In this document: positions 45,935-58,731 of the stretch, piece by piece | Layout: the number at the start of each line of letters is the position of its first letter | Position numbering within the stretch: the stretch's first letter is position 1 | From: Zoogloea sp. 1C4 | GTDB lineage: Bacteria > Pseudomonadota > Gammaproteobacteria > Burkholderiales > Rhodocyclaceae | Direction: 5' to 3' | Assembly (NCBI RefSeq): GCF_009469605.1 | Contig: NZ_SSXU01000007.1 | Location: 124,001-188,000 of the forward strand | DNA length: 64,000 bases | Program-made: the position numbers and the translations under genes | Notes under the pieces: generated by a model | The model's database searches: none | Seen by the model: only the letters and a program-made list of their open reading frames with translations | Told to the model about the DNA's origin: nothing

Positions 45935-47242
45935 CTACATGCCCAGATAGGCGGCGCGCACCTGCTCGTCCTCGATCAGCTCGCGGCCGGTGCCGGTGAG
46001 GGTGACCGAGCCGGTTTCGAGCACGTAGCCGCGGTCGGCCAGCGCCAGCGCGGAGAACGCGTTCTGCTCGGCGAGGATGATCGACATGCCCTGGGCCTTG
46101 AGGGCCTTCACCACGTTGAAGACTTCCTCCACCAGCAGCGGGGCGAGGCCCATCGAGGGTTCGTCGAGCAGCAGCAGCTTGGGCCGGCCCATCAGCGCGC
46201 GGCCGATGGCGAGCATCTGCTGCTGCCCGCCGGAGAGCGTGCCGGCGGGGAGCTTCCGCTTCTCCTTGAGGATCGGGAACATGGTGTAGATCTTCTCCAG
46301 ATCGCCTTCCACCTGCGTCCTGGGCTGGGTGTAGGCGCCCAGGCGCAGGTTGTCCTCGATGGACAGCGGGCCGAACACCTGGCGGCCTTCCGGGCTCTGG
46401 CAGATGCCCCGGCGCATGCGCATGTCGGCGCGCAGCTTGGAGATGTCCTCGCCGTCGAAGACGATGCGCCCGCTCATGGGCTGCACGCCCGACAGGCTGC
46501 GCAGGAAGGTGGTCTTGCCGGCGCCGTTGGCGCCCACCAGGGCGACGGTTTCGCCGCGTCGCACTTCGAGGGTGATGCCCTTGAGCGCCTTGATGCGGCC
46601 GTAGCTGCTTTCGAGGTTGGACACCGACAGCAGCACGTCCGGCTGACTGGCGGCGGATTGCAGCTCGCCGGCGCTGCTGGCGCCCAGGCCCACCGACACT
46701 GGCGCGAGGCTGGCAACCTTGTGGAACAGCTCGCGGAATTCGGCCCGGGCGGCGCTGCCGAACACCGGGTCGTCGTTGTCGAGGAAGGCGGCGTCGATCT
46801 CGGCCCAGTCGGCGGGGGTGAGCACCTCGCTGGCGAGGCCGTAGATGTCGCGCTCCTCCCTCTTGATGTGAGCCTTCTGGTCGTTGAGGTAGAGCCGGAA
46901 GGCTTCGGCCAGGCCGCCGATGGTGCTGCGGCCGGCTACGGTGTCGGCCAGTTGCTGGCGCAGGGCGAGGAGGTTTCGGGGGCCGTTGCGGTGCTCGGCC
47001 TGCAGGCGGTCGAGGAGCGGGGCGGCGGCGTCAGCGCGCTGGCGCAGCACGCGGAACAGGTGCTCGTCCTCCTTGCGGTGGTGGCAGCCGTCCATGAAGT
47101 GTTCGAAGTAGTCGAGCACCGAGGAGAGGAAGGCTTCCTCCACCTTGCGGTCGCGCTCCATTTCGGCGATGACCTGCTCGACGGTGATGGCGATGCGCCA
47201 CAGATTGCGGTGCTCGTCCTTGATGATGCTGAGGGCTTCCAT
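45935..47242 (-). CDS. livF: Hemerythrin-domain/LivF fusion: ABC transporter ATPase
   Basis: 435 residues in one frame, about 190 longer than normal LivF. Residues 1-175 are a hemerythrin-like four-helix domain: His11 (DEHRNLWRI), His54/His55 with Glu58 and His61 (GCHHRKEDEHLFRVL), His84 (AEHRNGPRN) and His125 with Glu129 (AHIKREERD). A linker of about 25 residues (GLGASSAGELQSAASQ) leads to a complete LivF ATPase: Walker A GANGAGKTT (237-245), signature LSGGQQQML, Walker B LLLLDEPS, and the tail AAYLGM. The ATG at 47242 has AGGA six bases upstream. A GTG at 47260 overlapping livG is the alternative. The iron or oxygen-sensing role is inferred from the domain only. Confidence 0.93.
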   Translation of the reverse strand: MEALSIIKDEHRNLWRIAITVEQVIAEMERDRKVEEAFLSSVLDYFEHFMDGCHHRKEDEHLFRVLRQRADAAAPLLDRLQAEHRNGPRNLLALRQQLADTVAGRSTIGGLAEAFRLYLNDQKAHIKREERDIYGLASEVLTPADWAEIDAAFLDNDDPVFGSAARAEFRELFHKVASLAPVSVGLGASSAGELQSAASQPDVLLSVSNLESSYGRIKALKGITLEVRRGETVALVGANGAGKTTFLRSLSGVQPMSGRIVFDGEDISKLRADMRMRRGICQSPEGRQVFGPLSIEDNLRLGAYTQPRTQVEGDLEKIYTMFPILKEKRKLPAGTLSGGQQQMLAIGRALMGRPKLLLLDEPSMGLAPLLVEEVFNVVKALKAQGMSIILAEQNAFSALALADRGYVLETGSVTLTGTGRELIEDEQVRAAYLGM

Positions 47243-47256
47243 GGGGGTTCCTCGAT

Positions 47257-48021
<765 letters not shown>

Positions 48022-48036
48022 CTCAGGACTCCTGAA

Positions 48037-48098
48037 GGGCCGCCCCGAGGGAGGCCTGCGCCCCCTTGGGGGGCAGCGAACGAAGAGAGCGTGGGGGC
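48037..48098. repeat. GC-rich palindromic intergenic repeat between livM and livG
   Basis: GGGCCGCCCCGAGGGAGGCC is followed by GCCCCCTTGGGGGGC and, after GAACGAAGAGAGC, a GTGGGGGC tail. The nested palindromes fill most of the 81-bp livM-livG gap. The form resembles mobile palindromic repeats I associate with betaproteobacterial genomes, but copy number cannot be tested here. Confidence 0.65.
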
Positions 48099-48102
48099 AT
48101 CT

Positions 48103-49035
48103 TTATTCAGCCTTTCCAAACTTGCTGGCCAGCGTGGGCACCAGGCCCTTGGGCAGGAAGATCATGCAGATCATCAGGATGGCGCCGAAGGCGACGGTCT
48201 CCCAGCCTTCGAAGGTGGCCAGTGCCTGGGGCAGGGCGGTGAGCAGCACCGCGCCGATCACCGAGCCATACACGGAGGCCATGCCGCCGATGACGACCAT
48301 CGTGACGAGCTCGATCGAGTGGAAGAAATCCGCCAGGTTGGGGGTGACGAAGCCCACGTAATGGGCGGTGACGCTGCCCATCAGGCTGGCAAACACCGCG
48401 GACATCACGAAGATGGCGACCTTGTAGCGCACCACATCCACGCCCACCACGCGGGAGGCGACCTCGGAGCCGTGCAGCGCACGCAGGGCGCGGCCGAAGG
48501 GCGAGTCGATGAGGTTGAGGGACGCCCACACGCTCACCGCCAGCAGCGCGGCGACCACCCAGTACCACTGCTTGTCGCTGGAAAGCTCGAAGCCGGCCAG
48601 GCCGAAGGCGGGCACCGGCATGCCGTCGGGGCCGCCGGTCCATTGGGCCTCGTTGCGCACCGCGATGTTGATGATGATGCCGAGGCCCAGGGTGGCCATC
48701 GCCAGGTAGTTGCCCTTCAGCTTGAAGATCGGTCGGGCGACCAGCGCGGCGAGGATGCCGGTGGCGACGGCGCCGGCGATCATCGCCAGCACCGGGTGCC
48801 AGCCGAAGTGGGTGGGCAGCACCGCCGAGGCGTAAGCGCCCAGGCCCAGGAAACCGGCGTGGCCCAAGCTGATCTGGCCGGCGAAGCCGATCAGCAGGTT
48901 GAGTCCGAGCACGATGATCGCGTTGATCGCCATGCGGATCGCCAGATCCAGATAGAAGCTGTTGGGCAGCACGAAGGGCAGCACCGCCAGCACTGCGATG
49001 AGGATGTAGAGGCCGAAGTAGGCGCGTTTTTGCAT
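48103..49035 (-). CDS. livM: Branched-chain-type ABC transporter permease LivM
   Basis: 310 residues with about eight to ten membrane helices. LivM marks: GLNLLIGFAGQISLGHAGFLGLGAYASA and FALRGSE-like ALRALHGSEVASRVVGVDV, then GGMASVYGSVIGAVLLT. The ATG at 49035 is used. A GTG at 49041 would overlap the livH stop as GTGA. It forms the membrane channel with LivH. Confidence 0.95.
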   Translation of the reverse strand: MQKRAYFGLYILIAVLAVLPFVLPNSFYLDLAIRMAINAIIVLGLNLLIGFAGQISLGHAGFLGLGAYASAVLPTHFGWHPVLAMIAGAVATGILAALVARPIFKLKGNYLAMATLGLGIIINIAVRNEAQWTGGPDGMPVPAFGLAGFELSSDKQWYWVVAALLAVSVWASLNLIDSPFGRALRALHGSEVASRVVGVDVVRYKVAIFVMSAVFASLMGSVTAHYVGFVTPNLADFFHSIELVTMVVIGGMASVYGSVIGAVLLTALPQALATFEGWETVAFGAILMICMIFLPKGLVPTLASKFGKAE

Positions 49036-49037
49036 GG

Positions 49038-49913
49038 TCACACCCGGTCGGTCACCTTCGCGCCGAACAGGCCGCGCGGCATGAAGAAGAGGATGAAGAG
49101 GATCAGCACGAAGGGGATCGGGTCCTTGTAGGCCGACGACAGATAGCCGGCGCCCATGGCTTCGAGGATGCCCACCAGCAGGCCGCCCACCACCGCGCCC
49201 AGGCCGTTGCCGAGCCCGCCCAGCACCGCCGCGACGAAGCCCTTGAGGCCCAGCATGATCCCAACGTCGTAGGAGGTGAGGGTGATCGGGGTGATCAGGA
49301 TGCCGCCGAGCGCGCCCAGGGCCGCCGACATGGCGAAGCTCATGAACAGCACGCCGTTGGTGTTGATGCCGACCAGCTCCGCCGCGAGGCGGTTGTAGGA
49401 GGTGGCGAGCATCGCCTTGCCGGTGAGGGTGCGGTTGAAGAAGTACCACAGCACCACCACCACGATGGCGGTGACACCCATCACCCACAGGCTCTGGGGC
49501 ATCAGGGTGGCGCCGAGGATCTCGATGGGCGTATCGCCCGAGAAGGCCGGCAGGCTATGGGTGTTCTTGCCGAGGAAGACCTGCACCAGCCCGCGGATCA
49601 CCAGCGATGCGCCGATGGTGATGATGATGAGGGTCACCGTCTCGGCGCCCTTCACGGGCTCGATGGCCAGCTTCTCGATGAGGATGCCGACCACCGCCGG
49701 CACCAGGATCGCCAGTGCCAGCGCCGCCGGCAGGGGCAGCCCGGCCTGGGTGAAGAACACCGCCAGCATGCCGCCCAGCATGATGAACTCGCCCTGGGCG
49801 AAGTTGATCACGTTGCTGGCGTTGTAGATCAGCGTGAAGCCGAGGGCCGCCAGCGCATAGGTGGCGCCGACGGTGAGGCCGGAGAACAGGAATTGAAGCA
49901 GCTGGGCGAGCAT
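49038..49913 (-). CDS. livH: Branched-chain-type ABC transporter permease LivH
   Basis: 291 residues. MLAQLLQFLFSGLTVGATYALAALGFTLIYNASNVINFAQGEF is the classic LivH opening (seen here in pieces). GLKGFVAAVLGGLGNGLGAVVGG is the cytoplasmic coupling loop. GGGAGG lies six bases before the ATG. It is the first structural gene of the minus-strand liv operon, downstream of a predicted promoter and operator. Confidence 0.95.
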   Translation of the reverse strand: MLAQLLQFLFSGLTVGATYALAALGFTLIYNASNVINFAQGEFIMLGGMLAVFFTQAGLPLPAALALAILVPAVVGILIEKLAIEPVKGAETVTLIIITIGASLVIRGLVQVFLGKNTHSLPAFSGDTPIEILGATLMPQSLWVMGVTAIVVVVLWYFFNRTLTGKAMLATSYNRLAAELVGINTNGVLFMSFAMSAALGALGGILITPITLTSYDVGIMLGLKGFVAAVLGGLGNGLGAVVGGLLVGILEAMGAGYLSSAYKDPIPFVLILFILFFMPRGLFGAKVTDRV

Positions 49914-50046
49914 CACGCACCTCCCGTCGGTGCGTGGTGGGGTCGATGAGTCATCGTGTCTCCTCTCGATCGAGTGGGCCGATCCGGCGCCGGGGACCAG
50001 GGTGGCTCGGCGGCCGAGATTCTATATTTTGTAATCGGTTCTGTTT

Positions 50047-50075
50047 ATTAGAAATGATACAAAAAAGCTAGTCAA
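50047..50075 (-). promoter_or_regulatory. Sigma-70 promoter of the liv operon
   Basis: On the minus strand TTGACT (50070-50075), 17-base spacer, TCTAAT (50047-50052). It lies about 135 bases upstream of livH inside an AT-rich stretch and is overlapped by the operator at 50055-50092. Confidence 0.65.
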
Positions 50076-50092
50076 GCTAAATTTGTGTATCA
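50055..50092. promoter_or_regulatory. Inverted-repeat operator TGATAC-N26-GTATCA, probable PaaX site
   Basis: Half-sites TGATACA (50055-50061) and TGTATCA (50086-50092). The first lies in the promoter spacer and the second just upstream of the -35. The same arrangement occurs at 55982-56020 before the diiron gene. E. coli PaaX is reported to use similarly widely spaced TGATTC inverted repeats, so PaaX (52676) is the likely binder. IclR is the alternative. Confidence 0.55.
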
Positions 50093-50157: not shown

Positions 50158-50961
50158 TCAGCGGGGGCCGGGGGCTTCGCGAGTGGAGCCGAGGCGCTGG
50201 GAGAGGGAGTGGGCGGCGTCCTTGAGGCGGGCGATCACCGGGCTCTCGGCGCTCATGTCGATGGAGCCCTCGACGCCCACCAGCACGATGGACATGGTGA
50301 GTTCGTTCTTGAAGTTGAATACGGGCGCGGCCACCGCCTCGACGCCGCGGAACATGTAGTTGCCGGAGATGGCCGCCACGCCTCGGTTGCGCACGTCGGC
50401 CAGCAGGGCCTCGGCGTCTTCCGGCGTCTCGACGCCGGGGGGCAGGTTCTTGCGGGCGTCGAGCTCGCGGCGGAGGATCGCCTTGGTCTGGGCTGGCGGC
50501 AGCCAGGCGCCGAACACCCGGCCGACGGCGGAGCTGAGCAGGCCGAGGGTGGTGCCGGTGACTACGTTGACGGTGATCGGCCGGCGCGGGCGTTCCCAGC
50601 GCACGATCACCGGGCCGTTATCGCCCCACACGGCCAGGGCGGTGGTTTCATTGACGGCGTCGCGCAGCTCGGAGATTGCCGTGAGGCCGAGCCGGATGCG
50701 GTCGAGCCGGTCGATTGCGACGAGGCCGATGTTGAGCGCGAAGGGCCCGAGGTTGTAGCGCGAGGTGAGCGGATCCTGCTCGACGAGGCCGCTACGGATC
50801 AGGCTGACGAGGTAGCGGTGGGCCTTGGAAGGCGGCATGTCGGCGGCGGCGGCGATGTCCTTGAGCATCATCGAGCGCTTGCCGAACACCATCGCCTTGA
50901 GGATGCCCATGCCCACTTCGAGGGACTGGACGCCGTGTTTTCCTTCCAGCTCTTCGCTCAT
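50158..50961 (-). CDS. IclR-family transcriptional regulator
   Basis: 267 residues. The N-terminal winged helix-turn-helix is seen in MLKDIAAAADMPPSKAHRYLVSLIRSGLVEQD. The C-terminal effector domain has GVAAISGNYMFRGVEAVAAPVFN and ends after LSQRLGS. IclR proteins bind small acids. The gene lies 244 bp upstream of livH on the same strand and is divergent from paaY, so it may control uptake or the paa genes. Effector unknown. Confidence 0.9.
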   Translation of the reverse strand: MSEELEGKHGVQSLEVGMGILKAMVFGKRSMMLKDIAAAADMPPSKAHRYLVSLIRSGLVEQDPLTSRYNLGPFALNIGLVAIDRLDRIRLGLTAISELRDAVNETTALAVWGDNGPVIVRWERPRRPITVNVVTGTTLGLLSSAVGRVFGAWLPPAQTKAILRRELDARKNLPPGVETPEDAEALLADVRNRGVAAISGNYMFRGVEAVAAPVFNFKNELTMSIVLVGVEGSIDMSAESPVIARLKDAAHSLSQRLGSTREAPGPR

Positions 50962-51037: not shown

Positions 51038-51106
51038 AGTGAGGAGTAAGGAGGGAGGAGTGAGGAGGCCTTGGTTGGGGCTTGTGCGCTGGCGATTGGC
51101 GGCGCA
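51038..51106. repeat. Composite intergenic repeat, copy 1 (GA-rich arm plus GCGC hairpin)
   Basis: A purine-only-like arm of GAGGAGT/GAGGGAG heptads (51038-51068) is followed by GTGCGCTGGCGAT (51084-51096) and a TGCGC/GCGCA hairpin (85-89 with 102-106). The same 13-mer and layout recur at 63327-63433. The GA arm matches the complement of 54842-54872 with two mismatches in 29. Confidence 0.75.
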
Positions 51107-51169
51107 TGTGACCCCGAAGGCGTCGTCGCTGCGTCCCCGACACTCTTCCGCAGACCAGGAGATTCAGCC

Positions 51170-51787
51170 ATGACCCAGCTTCGTGTTTTCGCCATCGACG
51201 GCATCGTGCCCGTCGTCCATCCGTCCGCTTACGTTCATCCTTCTGCCGTGTTGATCGGTGACGTGATCGTCGGCCCCGACTGCTATGTGGGCCCGTGCGC
51301 CAGCCTGCGTGGGGATTTCGGGCGGCTGATCCTGGAGCGGGGCGTGAATGTGCAGGACACCTGCGTGATGCACGGCTTTCCGGGCACCGACACGGTGATC
51401 GAGGAAGATGGCCACATCGGCCACGGGGCGGTGCTGCACGGCTGCCGCATCGGCCGCAACGCGCTGGTGGGGATGAACGCGGTGATCATGGACAACGCGG
51501 TGATCGGCGAGGCGTCCATCGTGGCGGCGATGGCCTTCGTGAAGGCCGGGGTGGAGATTCCGCCGCGCTCGCTGGTGGCTGGGATGCCGGCCAAGGTGCT
51601 GCGCGAACTCACCGACGAGGAGATCGTCTGGAAGACCGACGGCACGCGCACGTATCAGGATCTGACCCGACGCTGCCTGGCGACGATGGTCGAGACTGAC
51701 CCGCTCACCGAGATGGAACCCGGCCGCAAGCGCTTCGAGATGCCGGACGTGGTGCCGCTGGTGGCGCTCAGGAAGAAGGACGCCTGA
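51170..51787 (+). CDS. paaY: PaaY, gamma-carbonic-anhydrase-like thioesterase of the paa pathway
   Basis: 205 residues. Hexapeptide-repeat left-handed beta-helix ([40 protein letters not shown]) with the three zinc His residues in [10 protein letters not shown] and [12 protein letters not shown]. PaaY hydrolyses dead-end CoA thioesters and supports phenylacetate degradation. AGGAG lies nine bases before the ATG. It converges with the GNAT gene, 3 bp apart, and is divergent from iclR. Confidence 0.93.
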
Positions 51788-51790
51788 GCA

Positions 51791-52255
51791 TCAGTCGCCG
51801 AGGCTGCGGGAATAGGCGAGGAACACGTCATCCCGCTTCCAGCCGAGCGATTCGTACAGGGCCTGGGCGGCGTGGTTGCTGCGCGCGGTGGTGAGGTCCA
51901 TTCGCGCCTTGCCCCGCTGCCGGGCCAGCGTCTCGGCCGCCTGCAGCAGACAGCGGCCCACGCCGGCGCGGCGGTGGGCGGGCAGCACGAACAGATCGTA
52001 GCGGCTGAAGATGGGCTTCGCCTCCACCGAGCAGAAGGTGGGGTAGAGCTGACAGAAGCCGAGGATCCAGCCATCCGCGTCGCAGGCGATGAGGATTTCC
52101 GACTCCTGCCGGGCGAGGCGCTCGAGCACGAAGCGCCCGGCGCCGGCCGGGTCGGCTGGCTGGTCGTAGAACTGGCGGTAGGCATCGAACAGCGGCGCGA
52201 TGGCCGCTGCATCTTCGGTGCCGGCGAGGCGGATGGACACGGCCTGCGCCGTCAT
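51791..52255 (-). CDS. GNAT-family N-acetyltransferase
   Basis: 154 residues. Single GNAT domain with the acetyl-CoA loop RRAGVGRCLLQAAE and the late motif NHAAQALYESLGWKRDDVF. Substrate unknown. The ATG overlaps the stop of the ABM gene as ATGA, so it is the last gene of the diiron-reductase-paaX-ABM-GNAT string. Confidence 0.88.
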   Translation of the reverse strand: MTAQAVSIRLAGTEDAAAIAPLFDAYRQFYDQPADPAGAGRFVLERLARQESEILIACDADGWILGFCQLYPTFCSVEAKPIFSRYDLFVLPAHRRAGVGRCLLQAAETLARQRGKARMDLTTARSNHAAQALYESLGWKRDDVFLAYSRSLGD

Positions 52256-52587
52256 GACTGGACGGCCTCGGACGCAGCACCGGGGATCGGCCCCAGCTTG
52301 CCGTCGCCGTAGGTGCGCAGCACCTGGGAGATGGTGACGTGATAGCCGTCGAGCCAATCGGCCTGGCGGGCCTTGGCTTCCCGGTGCAGCGGGTGGTCAA
52401 CCAGGGCCTTGAGGGCTTCGAGGCTGTCCCAGTAATACACGTTGGCGATCTGGCCAGACTGGGGGTTCTCCCAGCTGGTTTCACCCAGGTAGCCGGGAAT
52501 CGAGCGAGCAGCAGCGATCGCTTGGTCGAGGCGGTGGAACGCGTCGTCGAAGGCCCCGGCCTTGAAAACGAAGGTGGAGGTGTACAT
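52252..52587 (-). CDS. ABM-domain (dimeric alpha-beta barrel) protein
   Basis: 111 residues. YTSTFVFKAGAFDDAFHRLD, IPGYLGETSWENP, VYYWDSLEALKALVDHPLHREAK is the antibiotic-biosynthesis-monooxygenase barrel pattern, with conserved Trp and a HxxHREAK-like end. Such proteins range from heme-degrading and quinone-forming monooxygenases to stress proteins. GGGAG lies six bases before the ATG. Its place downstream of paaX and an oxygenase suggests handling of a phenolic or quinone by-product, which is inference. Confidence 0.8.
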   Translation of the reverse strand: MYTSTFVFKAGAFDDAFHRLDQAIAAARSIPGYLGETSWENPQSGQIANVYYWDSLEALKALVDHPLHREAKARQADWLDGYHVTISQVLRTYGDGKLGPIPGAASEAVQS

Positions 52588-52675
52588 CCGCAGCTCCCGG
52601 TTCAATCGGAAAAAAGCGGCGTATTAGACGCGCCTCTGCCCATGAGGACAAGGGCAAGCGATGCCTGATGTGGGA

Positions 52676-53629
52676 TCAGGCCAGTTCGGCCAGGGGGTCG
52701 TCTTCGCGGAAGCGTTCGTGGATGAGTCGGGAGGCCGGCGGCGTCTGGCCGCTGGCAAGCTGAAAGTGGGCGTCCAGGTGGCGCTCGGACGGGGCCAGCA
52801 GGCGTCGGTAGAGCTCCTTGCACAGCAGGCGTGCCTTCTGGCCGGGCCAGTCGGACGGCAGCAGCACGTCGGGGAGCTCCGGGTCGCGCAGCAGCAGGCG
52901 CCGGTAGTCGTGGATCAGCAGGATGCGCAGCAGGAAGGCGCTCTGGTCGTCGATCTCGTTGTTGGCGTCGGTGCGCAGCTGGTCGAGCACCGGCTGGTAG
53001 CGGTCGACGAAATCGGCATACACGCCGGCGAGACGTTCGAGATTCCACGCGCCATTGACCATGTCCACATCGTTGGCCGCGGTGCCGAACTGGGCATCGG
53101 CCGCCAGCAGCGGTTTGAGCCGGCCGAGGATGCCCGACAGCCCTTCGGCGTGGAGGGCGTCGAAGGCGGCGGTGAGATCGGCGCTGGGATGTACGAAGCA
53201 GTCGCCGCCGAGCACCCCGAAACCCTGCCAGAACAGCGCCCGGCGCAGGCCTTCACGCTCTTTCGGGGCGAGCTCGCCGACGGTGACGATGAGCCGCCAG
53301 CGGCGGTCCCACAGGGGGGCGCTGGAGGCGTAGATGTGGCGGGAGGCTTCCTCGAAGCGGCGCTGGCCGGACGGGGTGAGCAGGTAGTCGGTGCGCCGGC
53401 CGGAGGGCTCGGTGCGCAGCCATTCTTCCTTCACCAGCCGGAACACCGAGGTGCGCACCAGGCGCTCGTTGAGCCCGAGGGGTTCGAGCAGTTCGATCAG
53501 GCTGCCCAGCCAGATGCGGCTGCCCCGCGGCAGCACGGCATCCCCAAAGACCGAGATGATGAGCGAGCCCGCCTGGACGCGGTCTTGCTGGCGGAAGTCT
53601 TCGAGACGTTGCTGGGCTGGGGGGAGCAC
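52676..53629 (-). CDS. paaX: PaaX, repressor of phenylacetate degradation
   Basis: 317 residues. The N-terminal winged helix begins SLIISVFGDAVLPRGSRIWLGSLIELL with RLVRTSVFRLVKEEWLRTEPSGRRTDYLLT, the PaaX hallmark. The central and C-terminal parts (WRLIVTVGELAP, FLLRILLIHDYRRLLLRDPELPDVLLPSDWPG in pieces) match the family. It binds phenylacetyl-CoA as inducer in known cases. GTG at 53629 is taken as the start. No good ribosome binding site is seen, so the N-terminus may vary by a few codons. Confidence 0.95.
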   Translation of the reverse strand: MLPPAQQRLEDFRQQDRVQAGSLIISVFGDAVLPRGSRIWLGSLIELLEPLGLNERLVRTSVFRLVKEEWLRTEPSGRRTDYLLTPSGQRRFEEASRHIYASSAPLWDRRWRLIVTVGELAPKEREGLRRALFWQGFGVLGGDCFVHPSADLTAAFDALHAEGLSGILGRLKPLLAADAQFGTAANDVDMVNGAWNLERLAGVYADFVDRYQPVLDQLRTDANNEIDDQSAFLLRILLIHDYRRLLLRDPELPDVLLPSDWPGQKARLLCKELYRRLLAPSERHLDAHFQLASGQTPPASRLIHERFREDDPLAELA

Positions 53630-53724: not shown

Positions 53725-54774
53725 CTAGAAGCTCAGCAGGTGGGCCGCATCGGGGATTTCCGGCTGCTGCTGGGCGAAGAAGCCTTCGGTGTGGATGTGC
53801 TCGGTCTTTGCGCCGAGGGCTTTCACCGTCGTTGCGCAGGTCTCGACGAACTCCGGGCTGCCGGCGACGAAGATGGTGTGCTTCGACAGATCCGGGAACA
53901 GCCCGGGCAGCACCGCATCCACGCGCCCGGTCAGGTGGCCTTCGCGCTCCTCGCGGGTGAGGGTGATCTTGTAGTCGAAGGCCCGGTGCTTGGTGCGCCA
54001 CCAGGCCATCAGGCCCTGGCTGTAGACGTCGGCCTGGGTGCGGGCCGAGAAGAGCAGGGTGACGGGCTTCCTGAAGCCGCGCCGCAGGGCGGCTTCGGTG
54101 AGGGCCAGGATTGGCGCGAGGCCGGTGCCGGCGGCGAGGCACAGCACGGGCGTATCCACGCCAGGGTCGCCGATGAAGGTGCCGTAGGCGCCGGAGAGCT
54201 TGACGCTCTCGCCGATGTTGAGCTTGTCGTGAACCCAGTTGCTGGTAGTGCCGCCGTCGGCGCGGGCCACCTGCAGCACCAGCTCGCCGTCGGGACGCGG
54301 GGCGTTGGAGATGGAATAGGCGCGGGGCGGGATGTCGGCGCGCGGGTTCCCGAGGGTGACGTACTGGCCGGGCCAGTAGCGGATCGGCTGACCCACCGGC
54401 CGCAGGCGCAGCTCGACCACCCGGTCGGCCAGCGGGCGCTTGTCGGTGACCACGAAGAGGGCGTCCTCCCGCGGCGGGAAGAGCTTGGGCTTGGCGTCCT
54501 CGGTGCCCCATTCGATGGTCAGCTCGTCGGAGATCGGCTTGGCCATGCACATCAGGCCGTAGCCCTGGCGGCGTTCTTCCTGCGACAGCGCCATGTCGAG
54601 CACCATGCCCTGGTCGAACTGACCGGCGGTGACCTTCACCTTGCACTCGCCGCAGGCGCCGGCGCGACAGTTGTTGGGCAGCGCGTAGCCTGCCTTTTCG
54701 AGGGCCATCAGCACGGTGTCGCCGTAGGCGCATTCCACCGACTTGCCCGAGGGTTGCATGATGATGCGGGACAT
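53725..54774 (-). CDS. 2Fe-2S/FAD oxidoreductase, electron donor to the diiron protein
   Basis: 349 residues. An N-terminal plant-type ferredoxin domain (about 1-95) has Cys in NNCRAGACGECK and the fourth in GLMCMAK. A flavin domain with RAYSISNAP and an NAD domain with LCLAAGTGLAPILAL and FVAGSPEFVE follow. The ferredoxin-first order is that of soluble monooxygenase reductases, whereas PaaE has it last. It lies 105 bp downstream of the diiron gene on the same strand, so it almost certainly reduces it. Confidence 0.92.
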   Translation of the reverse strand: MSRIIMQPSGKSVECAYGDTVLMALEKAGYALPNNCRAGACGECKVKVTAGQFDQGMVLDMALSQEERRQGYGLMCMAKPISDELTIEWGTEDAKPKLFPPREDALFVVTDKRPLADRVVELRLRPVGQPIRYWPGQYVTLGNPRADIPPRAYSISNAPRPDGELVLQVARADGGTTSNWVHDKLNIGESVKLSGAYGTFIGDPGVDTPVLCLAAGTGLAPILALTEAALRRGFRKPVTLLFSARTQADVYSQGLMAWWRTKHRAFDYKITLTREEREGHLTGRVDAVLPGLFPDLSKHTIFVAGSPEFVETCATTVKALGAKTEHIHTEGFFAQQQPEIPDAAHLLSF

Positions 54775-54784
54775 GGTTTTTTCT

Positions 54785-54872
54785 CAGTGAGGGGTAAGGA
54801 GTGAGGAGCGAGGAGTTAGTAGCGAGGTGTCAGGGGGCGGTCTCCTTACTCCTCCCTCCTGACTCCTCACTC
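54785..54872. repeat. Composite intergenic repeat, copy 2 (GA arm facing CT arm)
   Basis: GA-rich arm 54785-54815 (GTGAGGGGTAAGGAGTGAGG) and CT-rich arm 54842-54872 are near inverted copies that can pair over about 30 bases around a short GGGGGC-containing loop. It fills the gap between the diiron gene and its reductase. The CT arm complement matches 51039-51067 with two mismatches in 29. Confidence 0.75.
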
Positions 54873-54879
54873 ATTCCCG

Positions 54880-55908
54880 TCAGAAGACGGGAATGATGTC
54901 TTCCATGTCGATGTCGCTGATTTCCTGGCCGGTGATGCCCACTTCGGGGATCGCCGGGAAGGGGATGTTGTAGCGGTCGAGCACGCCCTTCAGGTTGATC
55001 ATCGCGTTCTTCCAGTTCTGCAGCTTCATCTCGTAGGTCGGGATGCCGAAGCCGGCGCCGCGGGCCACTTCCTCGGCCTCGCGCTGGTTGTCGATGAAAT
55101 CGGCGGGCAGATCCCAGAATTCCATCGGCGGCTCGAACAGCACGGCCGACAGGAAGAGATAGCCGGCGCGGATCTGCTTGGTGACGATGGATTTGGTCTC
55201 TTCCTTCAGGCCCGGGTAGTCGCGCTCCATCACCGCCATGCAGATCGCCATGTGGCGGCCTTCGTCACGGCCGATGTTCTTGAAGCCTTCCTTGAAGACC
55301 GGCTCGCGGGAGTTGTCGAACATCTGCTTGAAGATGGTGGCGGCGGCGATCTCGCCCATCAGGAAGGAGCTGAACAGCACGGCCAGGTCGTACTTGGGCA
55401 CGGCCTGCTTGTAGCCGTTCCAGTAGCGCGAGCCATTGAAATACAGCCACTGCACGTTCTTCTGCAGGCGCTTGCCCAGCTCGGTCTTGGGCTGGTAGGT
55501 GATCGGGTCCGGGTGGCCGAGCATCTTGGTGATGGCCAGGCCACACATGATTTCGTGGTTCTGCTCGTCGCGGGTGACGGAGAAGAAGCACTTCCTCACC
55601 GGGTCTTCCTCGTGGACCTCGTAGGTCTTGATCAGCGCTTCGGCAAACACCGGGGGCGCCGAGGCGTCGAATACCGACAGCAGGCTCCACCAGTAGGCGA
55701 TGGATTCGCGCTCTTCCCAGCTGTAGCTGTCCACATCCAGGGTGTCCCAGGGCAGCTTTTCCGGATCCCAGTTTTCACGCAGGGCCGCCTGCCAGACTTC
55801 CTGCAGCTTTTTGGTCTTGCTGTTCCACGACAGCGGATAGATGTTGGGCTGCTGGATTTCCGGCGGGAATTCCATCTTGTCTGCAAAGCGTTCCTTGTTG
55901 CTGGCCAT
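54880..55908 (-). CDS. Ferritin-like diiron oxygenase component, probably aromatic (or aromatic-CoA) substrate
   Basis: 342 residues. A four-helix diiron site is visible: Glu90 (VFAEALIKTYE), Glu115-X2-His118 (TRDEQNHEIM), Glu186 (LMGEIAAATIF) and Glu216-X2-His219 (GRDEGRHMAI). The two E-x-x-H motifs, with 30 residues from Glu186 to Glu216, match the carboxylate-bridged oxygenase/desaturase/R2 pattern. It is neither PaaA nor BoxB as I know them. Strong ribosome binding site GAGGAGG. It heads the operon with its reductase and PaaX and is divergent from paaN. Substrate not shown by sequence. Phenylacetyl-CoA or a related aromatic is the contextual guess. Confidence 0.82.
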   Translation of the reverse strand: MASNKERFADKMEFPPEIQQPNIYPLSWNSKTKKLQEVWQAALRENWDPEKLPWDTLDVDSYSWEERESIAYWWSLLSVFDASAPPVFAEALIKTYEVHEEDPVRKCFFSVTRDEQNHEIMCGLAITKMLGHPDPITYQPKTELGKRLQKNVQWLYFNGSRYWNGYKQAVPKYDLAVLFSSFLMGEIAAATIFKQMFDNSREPVFKEGFKNIGRDEGRHMAICMAVMERDYPGLKEETKSIVTKQIRAGYLFLSAVLFEPPMEFWDLPADFIDNQREAEEVARGAGFGIPTYEMKLQNWKNAMINLKGVLDRYNIPFPAIPEVGITGQEISDIDMEDIIPVF

Positions 55909-55977: not shown

Positions 55978-56007
55978 ATCATGATACAAAAACAAAATAA
56001 ACGTCAA
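55978..56007 (-). promoter_or_regulatory. Sigma-70 promoter of the diiron-reductase-paaX operon
   Basis: On the minus strand TTGACG (56002-56007), an 18-base spacer and CATGAT (55978-55983). It lies about 70 bases before the start codon. A TGTATCA half-site, read on this strand, overlaps the spacer and -10. Confidence 0.5.
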
Positions 56008-56020
56008 CAAAAATGTATCA
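55982..56020. promoter_or_regulatory. Inverted-repeat operator TGATAC-N27-GTATCA, probable PaaX site
   Basis: Half-sites TGATACA (55982-55988) and TGTATCA (56014-56020) flank the -35. The left arm and its surroundings (ATGATACAAAAA) are identical over 12 bases to 50054-50065 at the liv promoter, and the spacing differs by only one base. Confidence 0.6.
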
Positions 56021-56258: not shown

Positions 56259-57926
56259 ATGACTCACCCCCTCTTCGAAAAGCACCAGGCCACGCTGGAA
56301 GGCGCCGTTGCCGCAATCGCCTCCCGCGCCTACTGGTCTGCCTACCCCGAGATGCCGAGCCCCAAGGCCTACGGCGAAAACGCGGCGGAAGAGGGCAAGA
56401 AGGCCTTCGAGGCCCACCTGGGCAAGGCTTTCGAACTGGGCCAGCCGGGCCAGAGCGGCTGGCTGGCGGGCGAGAAGTCGCCCTACGGCATCGCGCTGGA
56501 CGTGCAATACCCGGTGTGTGATCCGGAAGCGCTGATCGCCGCCGGCCAGGCCGCCATGAAGGGCTGGCAGGCGCTGGGCGCCGACGGCCGCACCGGCATC
56601 TGCCTGGAGATCCTCGACCGCCTCAACAAGCAGAGCTTCGAGCTCGCCCACGCGGTGATGATGACCACCGGCCAGGGCTGGATGATGGCCTTCCAGGCCG
56701 GCGCGCCCCACGCCCAAGACCGCGGCCTCGAGGCCGTCGCCTACGCCTGGCGCGAGCAGCGCTTCGTGCCCGCCGAAACCGTGTGGGAAAAGCCCCAGGG
56801 CAAGAACCCGCCGCTGGTCATGAAGAAGCACTTCGAGATCGTCGGCCGCGGCGTCGGACTGGTGATCGGCTGCGGCACCTTCCCCACCTGGAACACCTAC
56901 CCCGGCCTGTTCGCCACGCTGGCCACCGGCAACCCGGTGATCGTGAAGCCTCACAGCAACGCCATCCTGCCGGCGGCCATCACCGTGCGCACCATCCGCG
57001 CCGTGCTGGCTGAAAACGGCATCGACCCCAACCTGGTCAGCCTGTGCGTCACCGACAAGCGCGCCACCACCAAGGGCCTCGCCACGCATCCGGCGGTCAA
57101 GTCCATCGACTTCACCGGCGGCAACGTGTTCGGCCAGTGGCTGATCGACAACTGCCGCCAGGCCCAGGTGTATGCCGAGCTGGCGGGCGTGAACAACATC
57201 GTCATCGACTCCACCAACGCCTACAAGGCGATGCTGGGCAACCTGGCTTTCACCCTGTCGCTGTACTCCGGCCAGATGTGCACCACCTCCCAGGCCATCT
57301 TCGTGCCGGCCGCCGGCATCGAGACCGAAGACGGCCCCAAGAGCTACGACGAGGTGTGCGCCGATCTGGCCAAGGCCGTCGAGCGTTTCCTCGGCAAGCC
57401 CGAAGTGGCCCACGCCGTGCTCGGCGCGATCCAGTCCGCCGACACCCTTGAGCGCATCAAGCTCGCCAACAGCGGCGAGCTGGGCAAGGTGGTGCTGGCG
57501 TCCAGCAAGCTCGACAACCCGGACTTCCCGGGTGCCGAAGTGCGCACCCCGGTGCTCATCGCCTGCGACGCCGCCGACGAGCGCTTGTACATGGAGGAGC
57601 GCTTCGGCCCGATCAGCTTCATCGTCAAGGTGGCCGACACTGCCGCCGCCATCGCCCTCTCCGAGCGCGTGGTGAGCACCCACGGCGCGCTGACCGCCGG
57701 CATCTACTCCACGAAGCAGGACGTCATCGACGCGATGACCGAAGCCACCTGGCGCAGCAAGGTCGCCCTGTCGATCAACCTCACCGGCGGCGTGTTCGTC
57801 AATCAGTCGGCGGCGTACTCTGACTACCACGGCACCGGCGGCAACCCGGCGGCCAACGCGTCCTACGCGGATTCGGCCTTCGTCGCCAACCGCTTCCGCG
57901 TGGTTCAGCGTCGTTATCACGTCTGA
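56259..57926 (+). CDS. paaN: PaaN-type aldehyde dehydrogenase of the phenylacetate pathway
   Basis: 555 residues. Aldehyde-dehydrogenase fold with SIDFTGGNVFG and the catalytic Cys in YSGQMCTTSQAIFV. The acid is in NNIVIDSTNAY and the distal loop in EERFGPISFIVK. It belongs to the form without a C-terminal MaoC hydratase domain, so it should oxidise the ring-opened semialdehyde but needs a separate oxepin-CoA hydrolase. GGAG lies nine bases before the ATG. First gene of the plus-strand paa operon. Confidence 0.92.
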   Translation: MTHPLFEKHQATLEGAVAAIASRAYWSAYPEMPSPKAYGENAAEEGKKAFEAHLGKAFELGQPGQSGWLAGEKSPYGIALDVQYPVCDPEALIAAGQAAMKGWQALGADGRTGICLEILDRLNKQSFELAHAVMMTTGQGWMMAFQAGAPHAQDRGLEAVAYAWREQRFVPAETVWEKPQGKNPPLVMKKHFEIVGRGVGLVIGCGTFPTWNTYPGLFATLATGNPVIVKPHSNAILPAAITVRTIRAVLAENGIDPNLVSLCVTDKRATTKGLATHPAVKSIDFTGGNVFGQWLIDNCRQAQVYAELAGVNNIVIDSTNAYKAMLGNLAFTLSLYSGQMCTTSQAIFVPAAGIETEDGPKSYDEVCADLAKAVERFLGKPEVAHAVLGAIQSADTLERIKLANSGELGKVVLASSKLDNPDFPGAEVRTPVLIACDAADERLYMEERFGPISFIVKVADTAAAIALSERVVSTHGALTAGIYSTKQDVIDAMTEATWRSKVALSINLTGGVFVNQSAAYSDYHGTGGNPAANASYADSAFVANRFRVVQRRYHV

Positions 57927-57936
57927 GGAGGTCGCG

Positions 57937-58731
57937 ATGGAATTCAACAACATCCTCTTCACGGTTGAAGCCGGCGTCGCGCGCCTCACCCTCAACCGCC
58001 CGGACAAGCTCAACAGCTTCACCGGCGAGATGCACGCCGAGCTGCGCGCTGCGCTCGACTCGATCCAGGCCGACAAGTCCGTGCGCGTGCTGGTGCTCAC
58101 CGGCGCGGGGCGGGCCTTCTGTGCCGGCCAGGATCTGGCCGACCCGGACATGCAGAAGATCGACGGCAAGATGCCGGACATCGGTAACGTGGTCGAAGCC
58201 AACTACAAGCCGCTGGTGCTGCGCCTGCAGAACCTGCGCGTCCCGACCATCGCGGCGGTGAACGGCATCGCCGCCGGCGCCGGCGCCAGCGTGGCGCTGG
58301 CCTGCGATCTGGTGGTGGCCAGCAAGTCGGCGTCCTTCCTCCAGGCCTTCAGCAAGATCGGCCTGGTGCCGGACACCGGCGGCACGTGGTTCCTGCCCCA
58401 GCGCGTGGGCATGGCCCGGGCGATGGGCCTGGCGCTGCTGGCCGACAAGCTGCCCGCCGAGAAGGCCGCCGAGTGGGGCCTGATCTGGGAAGCCGTGGCC
58501 GACGACGCCTTCGCCGCCCGCGTCGACGCGCTGGCCACCCAGCTTGCCGCCATGCCCACCAAGGCGCTGGTGCGCACCCGCCAGGCCATGCACGCCGCGC
58601 CGGGCCACACGCTGGAGCAGCAGCTGTCGTTTGAAGGCAGCTTCATGCGCGAGCTGGGCTGGAGCCCGGACTACGCCGAAGGCGTCGCCGCCTTCATGGA
58701 AAAGCGCGCGCCGAAGTTCACGGGGGAATGA
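57937..58731 (+). CDS. paaG: 2-(1,2-epoxy-1,2-dihydrophenyl)acetyl-CoA isomerase PaaG
   Basis: 264 residues, crotonase fold. LNRPDKLNSFTGEMHAEL, the oxyanion segment AFCAGQDLADPD, and NGIAAGAGASVALACDLVVAS are present, with the catalytic Asp region FSKIGLVPDTGGTWFLP. PaaG isomerises the epoxide to oxepin-CoA and also moves double bonds later in the pathway. GGAGG lies six bases before the ATG. Coupled to paaH by ATGA. Confidence 0.94.
   Translation: MEFNNILFTVEAGVARLTLNRPDKLNSFTGEMHAELRAALDSIQADKSVRVLVLTGAGRAFCAGQDLADPDMQKIDGKMPDIGNVVEANYKPLVLRLQNLRVPTIAAVNGIAAGAGASVALACDLVVASKSASFLQAFSKIGLVPDTGGTWFLPQRVGMARAMGLALLADKLPAEKAAEWGLIWEAVADDAFAARVDALATQLAAMPTKALVRTRQAMHAAPGHTLEQQLSFEGSFMRELGWSPDYAEGVAAFMEKRAPKFTGE

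Follow-up and report, generated by a model that had tools for sequence, protein, structure and literature searches.

A predicted diiron oxygenase and its reductase in the paa locus of Zoogloea sp. 1C4: a candidate two-component phenylacetyl-CoA 1,2-epoxidase

A pair of adjacent genes encoding a predicted diiron oxygenase and a reductase was examined within a 64,000-nucleotide stretch of the Zoogloea sp. 1C4 genome (contig NZ_SSXU01000007.1, positions 124,001 to 188,000; hereafter, the window), where the pair is located among genes of the paa pathway for phenylacetate (Table 1). Both open reading frames (ORFs) were recovered where a preliminary description of the window had placed them, and the run that it proposed for the pair and paaX was also observed, the latter gene being located 95 nt downstream on the same strand and its product scoring above the TIGR02277 cut-off. 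The paaN gene is divergent from the diiron gene, and paaN, paaG, paaH, paaI, paaK and paaJ, described previously as downstream steps of the pathway, were all recognised in the window. The reductase has, as described, an N-terminal ferredoxin domain (PF00111, residues 7-80) followed by FAD and NAD domains, all of which exceed the respective Pfam cut-offs, indicating that the protein is a BenC-like reductase of the two-component oxygenase type.

Table 1. Features of the window and of related loci; positions refer to the window unless prefixed by the label of a locus from another genome
Feature	Position	Strand	Basis or remark
livHMGF-type ABC transporter operon	45935..49916	-	LivF fused to N-terminal hemerythrin domain
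Second operator copy, upstream of liv-type transporter operon	50055..50092	.	Motif scan
IclR-type regulator	50158..50961	-	Pfam search
paaY	51071..51787	+	NCBIfam search
PaaX repressor, third gene of the diiron/reductase run	52676..53629	-	TIGR02277, 279 bits (cut-off 264.6)
Reductase, 349 aa, domain order [2Fe-2S]-FAD-NAD	53725..54774	-	Pfam domains; order as in BenC
Diiron oxygenase (predicted), 342 aa	54880..55908	-	ORF list; proposed ligands D81, E115, H118, E186, E216, H219
Putative inverted-repeat operator TGATACA...TGTATCA around TTGAC -35, upstream of diiron gene	55982..56020	.	Motif scan
paaN (aldehyde dehydrogenase, PaaN_2)	56259..57926	+	TIGR02288, 910 bits; listed ORF begins at TTG 56211
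paaG, isomerase of phenylacetyl-CoA 1,2-epoxide	57937..58731	+	TIGR02280 over cut-off
paaH	58728..60275	+	NCBIfam search
paaI thioesterase	60247..60738	+	NCBIfam search
paaK phenylacetate-CoA ligase	60784..62109	+	NCBIfam search
paaJ thiolase	62123..63328	+	NCBIfam search
FAD hydroxylase-family proteins	L091:18580-20244, L087:17036-18898		NF006002, about 865 bits; downstream of pair
Homogentisate dioxygenase-like protein	L103:14028-15203		Downstream of pair

The preliminary description also referred to a paa locus that lacks paaABCDE, a statement that does not hold. A whole-genome search identified PaaA (329 bits) and PaaC (301 bits) on the same contig, with ORFs ordered PaaA to PaaE at contig positions 189619-193498 (contig C118). 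The window stops at position 188000, approximately 1.6 kb short of this cluster, and the apparent absence arises because its edge falls before these genes; that this genome lacks paaABCDE is ruled out. The associated suggestion, that the pair is an alternative system by which the ring of an aromatic CoA ester is activated, thereby loses the reason given for it, but the conclusion finds support in other genomes, in which the same pair adjoins paaN or paaG while no PaaA or PaaC exceeds the cut-off genome-wide.

A scan of one genome per species yielded 534 relatives, the best 80 of which (82-98% identity) were analysed. PaaA/PaaC status (PF05138) was obtained for the genomes of 77 of the 80 loci, leaving out L090, L096 and L100 (the last of which has paaABCDE in its locus), by means of a genome-wide search that covered PaaA and PaaC, not PaaB or PaaD. 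Forty-two genomes were positive, one gave a weak match and 34 had nothing over the cut-off, the last group including the genome of locus L080 (G016), which is 80% complete, and those of L081 and L103, which have sub-threshold matches of 24 and 22 bits, respectively. In 31 of these 34 PaaA-less loci, 100-461 nt separate paaN or paaG from the diiron gene; in the other three (L033, L073 and L083), the contig begins 392-749 nt ahead of that gene. None of the 34 contains a paaA-E ORF at 40% identity or more. The reductase gene is next to the diiron gene in all 34 PaaA-less loci and in 40 of the 42 PaaA-positive loci, with paaG/H/J/K/N being present in the locus of 28 of the latter. In L100 and L023, both of which bear PaaABCDE, that cluster adjoins or is near the pair. 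Across the 80 loci, the pair is mostly divergent from paaN (from paaA in L074, L076 and L086), often with paaX or liv genes downstream.

Twelve of the 34 PaaA-less genomes are from isolates, i.e. are not titled as metagenome-assembled genomes (MAGs): Dechloromonas hortensis, D. denitrificans, two Azonexus hydrophilus, Insolitispirillum peregrinum, Brachymonas denitrificans, Comamonadaceae CD01, Castellaniella sp. S9, C. caeni, C. defragrans (22-bit match only), and Alcaligenaceae CGII-56 and CGII-47. In the three PaaA-less cases tested (Azonexus, Brachymonas and Insolitispirillum), the PaaG protein encoded beside the pair scores above the equivalog cut-off, indicating that the pathway in such loci still expects the 1,2-epoxide; PaaK, tested in Azonexus, likewise exceeds its own equivalog cut-off. 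Eight PaaA-less loci listed ORF by ORF have essentially the order SBP (substrate-binding protein)-paaJ-K-I-H-G-N followed by the divergent pair, with some genes uncalled in some loci. The only oxygenase genes common to all eight are those of the pair, the remaining unmatched ORFs having been read by eye as opposed to profile-searched. The pair is accordingly seen as the best epoxidase candidate in several lineages, and as the sole one in most of the listed loci. On balance, it probably constitutes a minimal two-component phenylacetyl-CoA 1,2-epoxidase that acts as a non-orthologous replacement for PaaABCDE.

Within a central pathway of aromatic degradation, epoxidation of phenylacetyl-CoA is the key step and the one that requires oxygen. 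In the proposed mechanism, electrons from NADH would pass via FAD and then the [2Fe-2S] centre of the reductase to the diiron protein, where the carboxylate/histidine diiron site formed by the six putative ligands would activate O2. The diiron protein would then epoxidise the phenylacetyl-CoA ring at C1-C2, making the substrate of PaaG as PaaABCE does, such that one oxygenase polypeptide and one reductase would perform the step of that complex. The pair resembles PaaABCE(D) in operon context, proposed reaction, predicted ferritin-like diiron fold (Z 14.9 to PaaAC) and possession of an iron-sulfur flavin reductase. However, it has one oxygenase polypeptide and no sequence-profile relation to PaaA/PaaC, and the domain order of its reductase is reversed relative to PaaE of this genome, in which the ferredoxin part is C-terminal. 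BoxB/BoxA, comprising a single diiron protein and a separate reductase that act on aryl-CoA, has a similar composition; here, though, the reductase scores 25 bits with the BoxA model, for which the cut-off is 459, and no BoxB model was among the NCBIfam matches of the diiron protein at E up to 1.

The two ExxH motifs ascribed to the diiron protein in the preliminary description (E115xxH118 and E216xxH219) are present and, together with D81 and E186, do not vary in any of nine aligned sequences with identities as low as 49%, or in any of 19 closer relatives. The D81 column is Glu in three distant relatives (L120, L121 and L018), which fits expectation for an iron ligand. Helices predicted at residues 64-82, 103-130, 175-199 and 203-233 each carry one or more of the proposed ligands, and with this helical core, two ExxH motifs and two further carboxylates the protein appears to be a member of the ferritin-like diiron oxygenase superfamily. 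As described previously, it could not be matched to a characterised family. No family cut-off was passed in the profile search, and no identity as a non-aromatic oxygenase or desaturase emerged: AurF (PF11583) matched at 23.7 bits against a gathering score of 29.6, and the four NCBIfam families matched, R2lox and ribonucleotide reductase (RNR) R2 (10-11 bits; cut-offs 194 and 486) among them, scored 10-21 bits where 90-486 would be required. PF05138 was not matched at E up to 1, nor was any PaaA or PaaC model of NCBIfam. PaaA/PaaC, BoxB, AurF and R2lox were all dropped as family names on the basis of score. Sequence searches against solved structures returned nothing usable (best E 0.37; best E with a profile 0.16).

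A structure predicted from 19 close sequences (predicted local distance difference test score 73, predicted template modelling score 0.79, 43 residues under 50) is a ferritin-like bundle. The best Foldseek matches were RNR R2 and R2lox at E of about 0.004, with none at 0.001 or below, whereas a second structural comparison (VIA) returned VlmB, R2lox, PaaAC, ADO and sMMO entries tied at Z 14-16, with VlmB heading the list at 15.8, R2lox/RNR R2 at about 15 and PaaAC subcomplex entries at 14.9. The predicted fold therefore points to a diiron oxygenase, without telling which one. A protein that merely travels with the paa genes, being an AurF/VlmB-type N-oxygenase, an R2lox-like oxidase or a desaturase, would be consistent with the leading position of VlmB and with the weak profile matches among the 19 aligned members, comprising AurF in all 19 (best 4.7e-6; the cut-off was compared for the window protein alone), rubrerythrin in 14 and the RNR small chain in four (best 2.9e-5). 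The ligand order of R2lox and RNR R2, carboxylate-ExxH-Glu-ExxH, is likewise shared, and the predicted fold matches theirs at a level tied with several other diiron families. However, the window protein falls below the AurF cut-off and far below those for R2lox and RNR R2, and Ile stands at the position of the third His of AurF, which presumably lies four residues before E216. A dedicated partner reductase and a catabolic regulon also suit ring oxygenation better than N-oxygenation, as in AurF, CmlI and VlmB, or an R2lox-like activity, rendering this alternative very improbable.

The association between the pair and loss of PaaA/PaaC was also examined in 399 evenly sampled genomes of the order, each with a completeness of at least 90%. 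The diiron gene was strong in 11 of these and weak in four (G037, G732, G839 and G840; E 6e-6 to 8e-11), the weak matches being counted as without the pair. PaaN_2 was over the cut-off in 42 of the 399, comprising 10 of the 11 strong-diiron genomes and 32 of the 388 others (p 6e-10). Among the PaaN_2 genomes, PaaA/PaaC was absent from 7 of 10 with the diiron gene compared with 2 of 32 without it (p 1.4e-4, or 4e-4 with the weak case G846 taken as absent), and three of the seven PaaA-less diiron-bearing genomes are single-contig. In G721, the pair occurs together with PaaA/PaaC, but no PaaN_2 match exceeds the cut-off. The diiron gene was found in 1 of 274 genomes in a sample of the class (the Zoogloea genome itself) and in 2 of 398 in a sample of the phylum (the same genome and G620). 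A further 46 genomes, chosen as opposed to sampled, included 38 with PaaN_2; of the remaining eight, G023 has PaaA/PaaC and seven are without the pair and without convincing PaaA/PaaC. One of these seven, G032, has a PaaA/PaaC match just over the cut-off (28.9 bits, on a 496-aa frame). G846 and G030 have divergent PaaA/C-like matches alone (73-89 bits), one of them adjoining paaN. The gene group noted there (L149:7332-9461 in G846; L153:8446-10705 in G030) comprises paaN, a flavodoxin-like gene, a gene for the divergent PaaA/C-like protein, paaG and paaI, with paaK further on. The PaaA/C-like protein of L153, the module on which Pfam was run, gave 86 bits, and the arrangement looks like a further pared-down epoxidase module in which the order of paaABCDE is not kept.

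An auxiliary role in phenylacetate metabolism, in which the pair clears a shunt product (2-hydroxyphenylacetate or a tropone precursor) and PaaA-less species use an unrecognised epoxidase, would account for the coexistence of the pair with PaaA/PaaC in 42 of 77 genomes. It would also be compatible with the diiron gene being apparently broken in two Zoogloea-like genomes, both of which have PaaA/PaaC: in G005 (L015/L020) residues 1-141 and 139-342 are encoded on separate pieces, which could be a sequencing error, and in G021 (L016/L021) residues 127-243 are missing. However, redundancy accounts equally well for broken copies in PaaA-positive genomes, and an auxiliary role does not explain why PaaA is missing more often where the pair is present; it is considered distinctly improbable.

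A second possibility is that the pair, as part of the same regulon, oxygenates the ring of a different substrate, such as hydroxyphenylacetyl-CoA, phenylpropionyl-CoA or indoleacetyl-CoA, the product of which joins the paa lower pathway. Variovorax relatives of 52-54% identity sit with an indolepyruvate:ferredoxin oxidoreductase-like gene, an FAD oxidase, a ligase and a thiolase, suggesting that other aryl-CoA esters may be substrates in the family at large, and copies unlinked to paa genes occur in Achromobacter and Parazoarcus, genomes that have PaaA/PaaC. Against this, PaaG (three tested) and PaaK (one tested) from the PaaA-less loci still exceed the equivalog cut-offs of the phenylacetate pathway, and no other epoxidase candidate common to these loci was seen, making a different substrate unlikely, though less so than an auxiliary role.

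Several observations weigh against the pair being a replacement for PaaABCDE. PaaA/PaaC is also carried by 42 of the 77 genomes and by that of Zoogloea sp. 1C4, indicating that the pair is not needed in those genomes, and most of the 34 PaaA-less genomes are MAGs for which completeness is not stated. Another oxygenase-type gene, not shared by all, is located 3-9 kb from the pair in three of the eight listed loci; these FAD hydroxylase and homogentisate dioxygenase-like genes (L091, L087 and L103; Table 1) possibly belong to a homogentisate-type branch. No paa gene, at 50% identity, was present in the fetched locus of Achromobacter, Parazoarcus, Azoarcus or Pseudothauera, and the structural match of the predicted fold does not single out PaaA/PaaC. 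The p-values from the even sample overstate independence, since its seven PaaA-less genomes span three genera, and some of the seven recur among the 34. The sample and the set of relatives overlap: judging by identical match positions, G785, G989 and G980 are apparently the genomes of L038, L036 and L103, and G833 is maybe that of L068. Three genomes have PaaN_2 yet neither PaaA/PaaC nor the pair over cut-offs: the PaaN-like gene of G867 is 41% identical and the sole other paa gene in the 12 kb fetched is a 38% paaJ, so that this is hardly a paa cluster; G025 has its PaaN gene on a contig of 3 kb, at the end; and G899, which has two PaaK-like ORFs beside its PaaN gene and no oxygenase recognised there, remains as the unexplained exception. 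Finally, the literature yielded no data on growth, mutants or enzyme activity for the pair, for which reason phenylacetyl-CoA is put forward as a proposed substrate.

A putative operator is shared by the operon of the pair and the transporter operon, which favours the epoxidase reading. A first k-mer and palindrome scan was swamped by coding sequence, and the operator came from a GATAC motif. The form TGATACA-N15-40-TGTATCA occurs twice in the window, with TTGAC inside, and in none of 100 shuffles, while a looser form, GATAC-N20-34-GTATC, precedes the diiron gene in 49 of 79 related loci, compared with 0.5 per shuffled window, and was not found at the other 30. A second copy of the looser form faces paaN in Dechloromonas-type loci. 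Set against the replacement of PaaABCDE, three Achromobacter genomes have the operator before an unlinked pair and not in the fetched paa stretch. At its N-terminus, the LivF-type ATPase of the transporter (window 45935-47260) carries a hemerythrin domain (PF01814, 50 bits, cut-off 25.3), a fusion present in 39 of 41 related LivF ORFs of the loci, and the transporter is a possible oxygen- or redox-gated uptake system. Several of the PaaA-less isolates belong to genera of denitrifiers which, together with the hemerythrin domain on the adjoining ATPase, suggests a low-oxygen role. The broader proposal, that a minimal epoxidase replaced PaaABCDE in several proteobacterial lineages, many of them denitrifiers, probably for use at low oxygen and within a regulon that includes the hemerythrin-fused uptake ATPase, stands at about even chances. 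In Zoogloea, the pair and PaaABCDE perhaps coexist to serve different oxygen ranges.

No published pair of this kind was found in a literature search made without most subscription journals and bioRxiv preprints, and no usable record was found in the literature of growth of the PaaA-less genera on phenylacetate. In the accessible portions of the literature, PaaABCDE is the enzyme named for phenylacetyl-CoA epoxidation. A 2026 survey describes PaaA and PaaC as robust pathway markers, mentions a few betaproteobacterial arrangements without the epoxidase, and retained in its final filter sequences beside PaaABCDE (PMC13186573). The accessible parts of other reports describe an alternative oxepin-CoA hydrolase, as opposed to an epoxidase, in a system whose oxygenase is paaABCDE (PMC9007349), and paa clusters in Aromatoleum and Dechloromonas, where no such pair is named (PMC9765128, PMC2907700). 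If the pair is indeed an epoxidase, PaaA/PaaC would be an unreliable marker of the phenylacetate pathway, and surveys based on these proteins would miss whole groups of environmental bacteria; a two-protein version would also be much simpler to investigate and apply than the complex encoded by five genes. The proposal is directly testable, because twelve isolates carry the pair without PaaA/PaaC over the cut-off.

The nearest relatives of the diiron protein (96 and 98% identity) are from Zoogloea and Zoogloeaceae, and five plasmid records contain relatives, namely Vitreoscilla (78%), three Variovorax (53-54%) and Nonomuraea (49%). On two Variovorax plasmids (L024:4725-24391 and L025:7574-24473) a 52-54% diiron relative and a reductase lie inside a CoA-ester cluster with genes for a dehydratase, enoyl-CoA hydratase, thiolase, AMP ligase, ABC transporter, FAD oxidase and an indolepyruvate ferredoxin oxidoreductase-like protein, with paaN annotated in L024; this cluster is an uncharacterised CoA-ester pathway, and the occurrence of the relatives in it also counts in favour of the epoxidase reading. 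In the Zoogloea window itself, the gap between paaX and paaY (51791-52605) contains genes for a GNAT acetyltransferase and an ABM-like small protein, which were seen in one and three, respectively, of the 77 classified loci.

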